DNA from: Geoglobus acetivorans
GTDB taxonomy: Archaea > Halobacteriota > Archaeoglobi > Archaeoglobales > Archaeoglobaceae
Direction of reading: 5' to 3'
Length of the DNA stretch: 64,000 nucleotides
Assembly (NCBI RefSeq): GCF_000789255.1
Contig: NZ_CP009552.1
Span: 1-64,000 of the forward strand
Shown here one piece after another: positions 61,982 to 64,000 of this stretch (within the stretch, counting starts at the first letter, position 1; the number at the start of each line of letters is the position of its first letter). The notes below the pieces were generated by a model. The model was not told where the DNA came from. It did not search any database and saw only the letters and a list, made by a program, of their open reading frames with translations. Position numbers and translations under genes: made by a program.

Positions 61982-62290
61982 CCTGCAATTCTGCTGACCT
62001 GTGACAGGGTTGGGGGACAACAGCCTCAGAAAAGCTGATTTATATGCGTATTGCCTGATTGAAGGTTTGGTAAGGCCATAAACTGAATAAATGAGTTACA
62101 GCAGCTTTAAAATGTTCCACAACTGATACGCTCCGAACAGCGCAGTCGGAATTAAAGCACAGATGAAAGGTTTTTCCAAACCCGATCTACCTTGAGTGTT
62201 TAATTGCCAAAGTCCATATTACGAGATTTCAGTCCAAACAATTTAGACACATTCAATACTTTTGGAAGATTTCAAAATTTTTAGACAAGA
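61982..62290. other. intergenic region with a possible gene remnant
   Basis: No complete gene is visible. On the minus strand a frame ending with a stop at 62096-62098 reads ALIPTALFGAYQLWNILKLL, like the end of a membrane protein, but it opens only at a stop near 62215 and has no start. This may be a decayed gene end. The rest is AT-rich with no repeat or RNA I can support. Confidence 0.25.
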
Positions 62291-62294
62291 AAAA

Positions 62295-62308
62295 ACTTTT
62301 ATATGAGA
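62295..62308 (+). promoter_or_regulatory. TATA box of the peptide/SpoIIM locus
   Basis: AACTTTTATATGAG-like element about 45-55 bases ahead of the first gene's ATG, leaving a leader of roughly 20-25 bases. A GAAGGGA sequence 8-14 bases ahead of the ATG can serve as RBS. Confidence 0.5.
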
Positions 62309-62351
62309 ACAGTAAAGAATAAGTGGGACAAAAATTGAAGGGAATAATAAG

Positions 62352-62630
62352 ATGTATGCTGTAAGGAGGTGGGATGAAGAAGTTGTGAAGTGGCTGGCTG
62401 TGGGAATGGTTTTAGGGATGGTTGGGTTGACGATAGTTGGAGGCACTTTCCTTGATTTGTACGGGCAGTATTTATTGGTAAGCAAGGATCCGGCATCAGC
62501 AGTGCCTACACTCGGCTTCATGATTTCAGATGCGGCTACTTTTGGGGTTCTCATTTACGCAGGTTTAGCAGCCGGACCTGCAGGATGGGCTGCAGCAGGG
62601 ATAATTGCTGCAGGGGCAGCATTATGGTGA
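62352..62630 (+). CDS. small hydrophobic peptide, possible circular-bacteriocin-like precursor
   Basis: 92 residues. A charged start (MYAVRRWDEEVVKW) leads into three hydrophobic stretches (about 14-31, 52-70 and 72-91), the last almost pure Ala/Gly/Ile and ending in Trp (GIIAAGAALW). There is no conventional leader or Gly-Gly site. The alanine- and glycine-rich helices with an aromatic C-terminus recall circular bacteriocin precursors, and the third gene of the set encodes a SpoIIM/DUF95 protein, a component common to those clusters. Holin-like or other membrane peptides are alternatives. Confidence 0.5.
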   Translation: MYAVRRWDEEVVKWLAVGMVLGMVGLTIVGGTFLDLYGQYLLVSKDPASAVPTLGFMISDAATFGVLIYAGLAAGPAGWAAAGIIAAGAALW

Positions 62631-63085
62631 CGCACGACGTTAAAATAGAGAAAATTAAGGAATGGAGAACGATTTCAGCGATAATGTTTCCGATCTCTTT
62701 TTTATTTGTTTTTTTAGCGTATTTCATAGCTTATATTTTTAAAGATAAGCTGCTTATTTTGTCACCATATTTAACGACTTACGTTATTGGTTTTGGTGTG
62801 GGATATTTCTTCACGGAGAAATTTTCGAAATTCAGTGAATGGCTGACTCATGCGGAAGGTCAGCCCAATATGCGATTTTGGTTTTTGTTTGGAGTAACCA
62901 TCAGTTATTTCATTGCAGTATCTGTTTCGTTCATATATGCCACTTTGCTCAGAATAGAGTACACTCTTGACAAGTGGTTGATAGGTTGGGGACTGTTGTT
63001 TGGAGTTACAACATTCATGGGATATTATGGTGGTGCATCTCTCTACATATACAAGAAAACTGGAGAAGTGATTGATGTTGTATGA
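62624..63085 (+). CDS. four-helix membrane protein of the peptide locus
   Basis: 153 residues. After a charged N-terminus (THDVKIEKIKEWRTISAIMF) there are four hydrophobic segments (about 16-38, 43-63, 84-107 and 117-137). I do not recognise the family. It starts at the ATG inside ATGGTGA, overlapping the peptide gene stop by 7 bases; a longer in-frame start at 62585 is unlikely. Tight coupling suggests export, maturation or immunity for the peptide. Confidence 0.65.
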   Translation: MVTHDVKIEKIKEWRTISAIMFPISFLFVFLAYFIAYIFKDKLLILSPYLTTYVIGFGVGYFFTEKFSKFSEWLTHAEGQPNMRFWFLFGVTISYFIAVSVSFIYATLLRIEYTLDKWLIGWGLLFGVTTFMGYYGGASLYIYKKTGEVIDVV

Positions 63086-63641
63086 AATCATTGCTTTATT
63101 TTTTGCCAATAATCGTTTTTTTATGGGTTTTATCGTGGGATTAAAAAATTACAATACAGTTGATCTTCCAAAATCACGTATTATTATAATACCTGAATTT
63201 GACAATTTTACACATGAAAGTTTATCTTTTGGACTTATTCTTACCAACAACGTCAAAGTTGTGTTAGTCTGCATTTTTGGCTCCCTATTTTTGTCAGTTC
63301 CAACCTTATTAACGCTCTTTAGAAACGGATTTATTCTCGGCTATCAAACTGCCAGTTCCTTATCTACAATCGGTTTCCAAACGTTTGCTTATGTTTTTCC
63401 CCACGGCATCTTCGAAATCCCAGCAATAATCATAGCGGGAGCAGCGGGCTTCAAAATCCCCTATGAAATCATCAGATACTTAGCGGGAAAAAAGGAGCAA
63501 ATACCTACAAGAGGGGAAATAAAAGAGTATCTAACGCTTGCATTAATCTCAATAATCCTAGTCGTAATAACAGCATGGATTGAGGCAAACATAACGCTGA
63601 AAATAGCCAGATCAATGCTCAATTCGACAAAAGGTATTTGA
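63075..63641 (+). CDS. SpoIIM/DUF95-family membrane protein
   Basis: 188 residues, four or five hydrophobic helices. The family blocks are visible: LTNNVKVVLVCIFGSLFL, LFRNGFILGYQ and FPHGIFEIPAIIIAGAAGF. DUF95 proteins occur in sporulation, in unrelated archaeal and bacterial membranes, and as the shared membrane component of circular bacteriocin clusters. It overlaps the preceding gene by 11 bases. A second short frame from 63082 (MKSLLYFLP...) also resembles a SpoIIM N-terminus, so the first 30 residues are uncertain and a frameshift there is possible. Confidence 0.8.
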   Translation: MLYEIIALFFANNRFFMGFIVGLKNYNTVDLPKSRIIIIPEFDNFTHESLSFGLILTNNVKVVLVCIFGSLFLSVPTLLTLFRNGFILGYQTASSLSTIGFQTFAYVFPHGIFEIPAIIIAGAAGFKIPYEIIRYLAGKKEQIPTRGEIKEYLTLALISIILVVITAWIEANITLKIARSMLNSTKGI

Positions 63642-63665: not shown

Positions 63666-63890
63666 ATGGAGAGGATAGAAGTTGATTTAGGAAAGCTTGG
63701 CGGTAAACCGGTAATAAAGGGAACGAGGATTCCCGTGCATCTTATTCTTGAAATGCTTGCCAGTGGTATGAGTATCGAAGATATTCCGAAGGAGTATCCG
63801 GAATTATCCGAGGAAGACGTAAGGGAAGCGATAAGGTACGCCTCAAAGATTCTGAGCAGAGAGGAATCATATGAAATTCCTGTTGGATGA
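63666..63890 (+). CDS. DUF433 antitoxin
   Basis: 74 residues. IEVDLGKLGGKPVIKGTRIP and LILEMLASGMSIEDIPKEYP, with LSEEDVREAIRYASKIL, are the classic DUF433 (VapB45-like) blocks, an HTH antitoxin family. The toxin gene overlaps its 3 prime end by 20 bases. Confidence 0.9.
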   Translation: MERIEVDLGKLGGKPVIKGTRIPVHLILEMLASGMSIEDIPKEYPELSEEDVREAIRYASKILSREESYEIPVG

Positions 63891-64000
63891 CAACATTCCG
63901 TTAAGCGTTAAGATTTGGTTTCAGAAAAGAGGAATTTATGCCATTAAGGCATTTGAAGTTGGATTGAAGGGGGCAGACGACGAAACTGTTTACAGATACG
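63871..64000 (+). CDS. DUF5615 PIN-like toxin (partial, runs off the window)
   Basis: 43 residues before the window ends. KFLLDDNIPLSVKIWFQKRG, with its paired Asp residues, and AFEVGLKGADDETVYRY are the usual start of DUF5615 (Mut7-C/PIN-like) nucleases, which pair with DUF433 antitoxins. GAGGAATC precedes the ATG. The rest lies beyond base 64000. Confidence 0.85.
   Translation, partial: MKFLLDDNIPLSVKIWFQKRGIYAIKAFEVGLKGADDETVYRY

Follow-up and report, generated by a model that had tools for sequence, protein, structure and literature searches.

A putative polymorphic archaeocin cassette family in Geoglobus acetivorans and other Archaeoglobaceae

Gene content and distribution of the cassette

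The stretch of DNA analyzed here (the window) comprises the first 64,000 nucleotides of the single-contig Geoglobus acetivorans genome (1,860,815 bp). Near its downstream end, it carries a trio of genes on the plus strand (62352 to 63641) encoding a peptide, a membrane protein, and a DUF95 protein, which overlap by 7 and 11 nt, and the coordinates of this trio given in the initial annotation are confirmed. The peptide gene (62352 to 62630) encodes a 92-residue precursor ending in GAALW that belongs to a family found in Archaeoglobaceae, and the middle gene (62624 to 63085) encodes a 153-residue membrane protein, described in the initial annotation as four-helix, for which a crude hydropathy count gave at least two helices. 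The third gene (63075 to 63641) encodes a 188-residue membrane protein that matches PF01944 with 96.3 bits, against a gathering cutoff of 26.9 (E = 2.5e-27), which upholds its earlier assignment to SpoIIM/DUF95. The gene starts are predicted, and the leader/core border within the peptide gene is placed from conservation. No family was matched by the peptide or the middle protein in profile searches. On comparative grounds, the small 92-residue ORF is not a chance reading frame, because it is conserved with its neighbors in approximately 20 genomes. The TATA-like box TTTATATG (62298 to 62305, plus strand), lying approximately 54 nt 5′ of the peptide ATG, is likewise not a chance match, because a 7- to 8-of-8 match to TTTATATA recurs at the same position (−51 to −58) in cassettes of several genera, 12 of 21 in all, and the proposal that the trio has its own TATA box is thus borne out.

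Upstream of the trio and divergent from the peptide gene lies a 40-codon remnant of a Yip1-domain gene (62099 to 62218, minus strand), recognized by a Yip1 profile match; intact Yip1 (PF04893) genes hold the same place at sister loci. Of the 33 assessable peptides, 15 have a divergent Yip1-domain gene or remnant no more than 1 kb upstream, and several of those without one are internal members of tandem arrays. Downstream of the trio, between two peptide cassettes, a DUF433 gene overlaps a DUF5615 PIN-like gene (63666 to 64000 and beyond the window edge), and the two probably form a toxin-antitoxin pair.

The host genome contains three cassettes, one of which is that of the window, and a decayed fourth. 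The second cassette lies 2.4 kb downstream of the window locus, just past the window edge, and the further peptide copies are located at 65073, at 1686253, and, in decayed form, near 1688670. The copies at 65073 and 1686253 are each followed by a different membrane protein gene and then by a DUF95 gene. The DUF95 gene of the third cassette (~1686850 to 1687413) appears frameshifted near its N terminus, with the first helix in another frame; it was joined for the similarity test only and was omitted from the composition test. Ahead of the second cassette, the Yip1 gene (~64302 to 64959, minus strand) is split into two frames and is probably a pseudogene or the result of a sequencing error.

Related cassettes, often in tandem, are present in approximately 20 Archaeoglobaceae genomes. 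The peptides occur in two families of the order, Archaeoglobaceae being one, with up to five per genome, and in a scan of one genome per species the DUF95 subfamily of the window (DUF95-A) is almost confined to Archaeoglobi. In a phylum-wide search, leader-profile matches outside Archaeoglobi are weak, and one of them (L196) was set aside, as it resembles a signal peptide (MKRLAVGMVLMLVALLIVPAVAAS). Two short contigs with Archaeoglobi-type cassettes (L110 and L113) sit in bins labeled Arcobacter and Desulfurellaceae; they are probably misbinned, and would otherwise represent cross-domain transfer. Isolated fragments of the DUF95 C half are scattered across Archaeoglobaceae genomes (e.g., 1763636 to 1763806 in the host), some of them in frame with unrelated sequence, and are read as signs of fast cassette birth and death.

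The initial annotation had tied its reading to a small peptide gene accompanying the DUF95 gene. This association holds for DUF95-A, where a peptide lies upstream of 26 of 30 near-full-length genes with enough upstream sequence, the exceptions being two truncated genes, a copy accompanied by middle genes but lacking the peptide, and one outlier in a bacterial MAG. It does not hold for DUF95 proteins at large: a single-copy host gene (~785456, minus strand) has no peptide and lies beside another membrane protein gene, whose product we take to be DUF63-like. This gene was excluded from the cassette family, as it belongs to another subfamily (approximately 30% identity) that is widespread in the phylum and presumably has a housekeeping role. 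In addition, an actinomycete-binned contig (L124:1977-4920) carries a DUF95 gene that the archaeal model recognizes at E = 6e-31, flanked by an ABC ATPase gene and the gene for a large membrane protein, probably the permease of that ATPase.

Conserved leader, variable core, and the DUF95 mosaic

Across 28 cassettes, the precursor consists of a conserved leader of approximately 31 residues and a variable core of 56 to 77 residues, with cleavage predicted between them. In the window, the leader (codons 1 to 31, 62352 to 62444) is delimited by the alignment, the identity profile, and a step at the border in GC content at synonymous third positions (GC3s), and the hypervariable, Ala/Gly-rich hydrophobic core comprises 61 residues, the last of which is Trp (62445 to 62627). 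The consensus over the first ~31 residues is MYAVKNWNEEVxKWLAVGMVLAMVGMAVMP. The cores contain 26 to 48% Ala plus Gly, are strongly hydrophobic and mostly net acidic, and contain Cys in 3 of 28 cases. None of 21 precursors matched the circular bacteriocin models in Pfam and NCBIfam at an E value of ≤10, and the precursor matched no circular bacteriocin among PDB sequences. Matches to PetG and Cyclin-C in the Pfam, NCBIfam, and PDB sequence searches are at chance level, and both were rejected as homologs; no known non-bacteriocin family, the kind of match that the initial annotation had set against its own reading, was found for the peptide. The AlphaFold2 model of the precursor, which is of low confidence (pLDDT 65), has helices at residues 5 to 43, 51 to 73, and 76 to 91.

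The leader also bears on a simpler reading, in which the peptide is a linear secreted archaeocin or microcin-like product, with a signal-type leader, an uncyclized core, and a DUF95 protein that acts only as an exporter or chaperone. The hydrophobic part of the leader resembles a signal peptide, as the weak phylum match mentioned above does, no cyclase is known or identifiable, and the ABC ATPase is absent, all of which would suit a linear peptide. However, signal peptides usually have a positive n-region, which the leader start WNEEVxKW lacks. In addition, a published account takes DUF95 as the defining protein of the circular bacteriocin class (PMC13289728), which makes cyclization of the core plausible by analogy and counts against a linear product. 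We consider a linear peptide unlikely, though it is the strongest of the competing explanations.

Divergence among the cassettes is unevenly distributed. Mean pairwise amino acid identities among 21 cassettes, for which each peptide sequence was located in the DNA, are 0.56 for the leader, 0.33 for the core, 0.25 for the middle protein, and 0.31 and 0.81 for the N and C halves of the DUF95 protein. In the window, these halves are encoded by 63075 to 63401 and, beginning at HGIFEIPAIIIAGAAGFKIPYEI, by 63402 to 63638. The similarity of the DUF95 N half tracks that of the core (0.47) and the middle gene (0.49) and not that of its own C half (−0.003). Met and Trp codons were excluded from GC3s, since the leader is Met-rich, and the mean values are 0.50 for the leader, 0.31 for the core, 0.30 for the middle gene, 0.29 for the DUF95 N half, and 0.45 for the C half. 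GC3s is higher in the leader than in the core in 19 of 20 cassettes (p = 4e-6) and higher in the C half than in the N half in 20 of 20 (p = 2e-6); the step between leader and core held after Met and Trp codons were dropped from raw GC3. With the drop in GC3s at the leader/core border and the rise inside the DUF95 gene, the core, the middle gene, and the DUF95 N half therefore appear to constitute a single exchanged unit, with one end within the peptide gene and the other within the DUF95 gene.

Four-fold-site identity of the DUF95 C half is 0.64 within genomes versus 0.38 between genomes, a pattern that would fit gene conversion between copies acting together with purifying selection. Gene conversion as the sole cause of the conservation was rejected: the first two host copies are only 43% identical at the four-fold sites of this half, and therefore purifying selection acts too. 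The AlphaFold model of the DUF95 protein (moderate confidence, pLDDT 74) yielded nothing in a Foldseek search against the PDB.

The middle gene as a proposed immunity gene

The middle proteins are 56 to 194 residues long, all have positive GRAVY values, and 26 of 28 are cationic; that of the window, with 153 residues and a charge of +2, is rather long. Circular bacteriocin immunity proteins are stated to be hydrophobic and cationic as well (PMC6131525). Core similarity predicts middle-gene similarity among 21 cassettes (Mantel r = 0.43, p = 0.0002), and among 28 cassettes r is 0.75, with a partial r of 0.75 given leader and DUF95 C-half similarity (p = 0.0003), a coupling inflated by three near-identical cassette pairs. 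The leader type hardly predicts the middle-gene type. Of the eight pairs with homologous middle genes, seven are homologous in their cores as well (Fisher p = 2e-10); the converse is weaker, with 8 of 15 core-similar pairs lacking a similar middle gene, and the coupling in part reflects physical adjacency. Matched cores and middle genes recur across genomes, mostly of different genera (G006a/G009c; G000c/G009a/G010; G011a/G017a; G028a/L113). In the last of these pairs, the leader DNA is 47% identical over its first 60 columns, whereas most of the remaining cassette is 70 to 90% identical.

Middle genes also occur on their own. A relative of the window's middle protein (68% identity) is encoded in a genome of another genus (G016), where it is placed after the DUF95 gene of another cassette and has no peptide of its own. 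It is directly preceded by the codons for AGAALW and a stop, a sequence identical to the six C-terminal residues of the window peptide, and the two DNAs are identical at 10 of 12 positions just before the start codon and fall to background level further upstream. This stretch, which is a short match and partly overlaps the start of the middle gene, is suggestive of the tail of a deleted cognate peptide gene. Another middle gene type (that of G006b) is found without an intact peptide or DUF95 gene of its own in the host genome (64% identity) and in one other genome (G001, 82%). Survival of a window-type middle gene as an orphan in another genus would be the behavior expected of an immunity gene.

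Matched types of peptide and membrane protein would also fit a ligand and its receptor, and orphan middle genes could then be eavesdropping receptors in a system of self-recognition or pheromone-like signaling, with the middle protein as receptor and not antidote. The middle proteins, however, are small, unrelated among types, and, among those scanned, free of recognizable signaling domains, and we know of no pheromone resembling these very hydrophobic cores of approximately 60 residues; signaling is accordingly rated as very improbable. The function of every member of the locus is putative, which leaves room for a conventional operon whose small membrane proteins serve some non-antagonistic function, for example in membrane stress. 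Divergence concentrated in the core, the middle gene, and the DUF95 N half, together with swapping, remnants, and orphans, would be unexpected for housekeeping genes, and this explanation is given almost no weight.

Relation to known systems and interpretation

Bacterial circular bacteriocin clusters contain a precursor gene, a transporter, a SpoIIM/DUF95 protein, an immunity protein, other hydrophobic proteins, and often Yip1 (PMC8659200, PMC6131525), Yip1 being common in them (PMC8659200). The cassettes resemble these loci in the combination of a leader and a hydrophobic, putatively helical core of approximately 60 residues with DUF95/SpoIIM, a small cationic hydrophobic membrane protein, and a frequent Yip1 gene; bacterial clusters sometimes also contain several precursor genes (PMC6131525, PMC8659200). 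The long leader, low charge, and high hydrophobicity recall the group ii circular bacteriocins gassericin A, acidocin B, and butyrivibriocin AR10. The present loci differ in being archaeal, in having no ABC ATPase in the cassette, in showing no detectable precursor homology, in their mostly net acidic cores, in the leader common to very different cores, in the DUF95 mosaic, and in that cyclization is putative.

The main mismatch is the missing ABC ATPase, as an ATP-binding gene was present in all circular bacteriocin clusters of one survey (PMC8534725). In agreement with the initial annotation, a motif scan detected ABC ATPases in only three cassette neighborhoods; the window locus and most of its sister loci have none alongside. 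In two of the three (L085 and L121), a SalXY/MacB-type exporter operon lies directly downstream of the DUF95 gene, and it is therefore possible that the ATPase is supplied in trans. These two operons (L085:9546-12797 and L121:3261-6242, in Archaeoglobus-type genomes) comprise a surface-protein-like gene, a SalX-type ATPase gene, and a MacB/FtsX permease gene following the DUF95 gene or its remnant, and they are candidates for a transporter or accessory immunity. Given the lack of an adjacent ABC ATPase and of detectable precursor homology, the low-confidence fold model, and a cyclization that is only putative, the locus is not placed in the circular bacteriocin class. Of the earlier proposal of a bacteriocin-like membrane-peptide system, the general reading is supported by the leader and variable core, the core-linked cationic membrane protein, DUF95, Yip1, and the orphans, while membership among the circular bacteriocins is not, there being neither an adjacent ATPase nor a model match.

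We therefore judge from the sequence comparisons that the locus is probably a single member of an Archaeoglobaceae family of polymorphic peptide-toxin/immunity cassettes that work as circular bacteriocin loci do, and the best reading is a polymorphic, secreted, membrane-active archaeocin system with a circular-bacteriocin-like build. The leader would be removed from the precursor, and the core of approximately 60 residues would be secreted by a membrane machine that contains the DUF95 protein and an ATPase encoded at another genomic site, perhaps with head-to-tail closure as well, to permeabilize the membranes of related cells, while the middle protein would protect the producer. Homologous recombination between the conserved ends, namely, the leader and the DUF95 C half, would bring in new sets of toxin, immunity, and recognition. 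In bacterial circular bacteriocins, the leader peptidase and the cyclase are unknown, and the involvement of DUF95 is a presumption (PMC6131525, PMC8659200). A more specific version, offered tentatively, has head-to-tail cyclized archaeocins made by a modular system: the DUF95 N half would recognize its own core, the C half would dock to common machinery, and recombination through the leader and the C half would move the toxin, its immunity partner, and the recognition half as one.

Other known systems share parts of this organization. Polymorphic toxin systems have a constant delivery end and a variable toxin end, matching and orphan immunity genes, and cassette exchange, likenesses that are drawn here from sequence; they differ in that the cassettes encode a small peptide precursor and not a large multidomain toxin, and in that one half of DUF95 belongs to the exchanged unit. 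Bacteriocin loci of the leaderless, aureocin A53-like type likewise pair Yip1 membrane proteins with small peptides active on membranes (PMC11580447), but their peptides have no leader and their loci no class-defining DUF95 protein. Makarova et al. in 2014 listed DUF95/arCOG01996 among archaeal dark-matter islands, with a presence in Archaeoglobi, in which DUF95 clusters with highly variable membrane proteins, and proposed a variable membrane-associated defence (PMC4158269). These islands probably overlap the cassette loci studied here, although the parts of that paper considered here mention neither a precursor divided into leader and core nor a pairing of cores with immunity genes, and neither exchange borders nor orphaned immunity genes.

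The proposal in that paper lends support to a membrane-embedded defence, abortive-infection, or toxin-antitoxin module, in which the peptide would act in the producing cell on infection, restrained by the middle protein and without secretion. Hypervariability and tandem copies would also suit arms races with viruses, and the likely toxin-antitoxin pair adjoins the window copy. On the other hand, one leader shared by very different cores, with DUF95 and Yip1 as neighbors, is a better fit to processed-peptide export, and the cassette contains no nuclease, sensor, or other defence gene. An intracellular role is thus considered improbable, and the secreted archaeocin system remains the preferred reading.

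No report of archaeal circular bacteriocins or similar systems was found in the open literature searched, and to the extent of that literature the exchange architecture of leader, core, and immunity gene is without precedent, although its priority is uncertain. The peptide weapons known from archaea are few. In the natural DUF95 series, peptide-linked variation is confined to one half of the protein, which points to a possible peptide-recognition site and lends itself readily to domain-swap experiments; if the N half does recognize its core, the part of the circular-bacteriocin machinery responsible for core recognition would thereby be located. With tandem cassettes and orphan immunity-like genes, the ecology of an arms race among vent archaea would also become open to testing.
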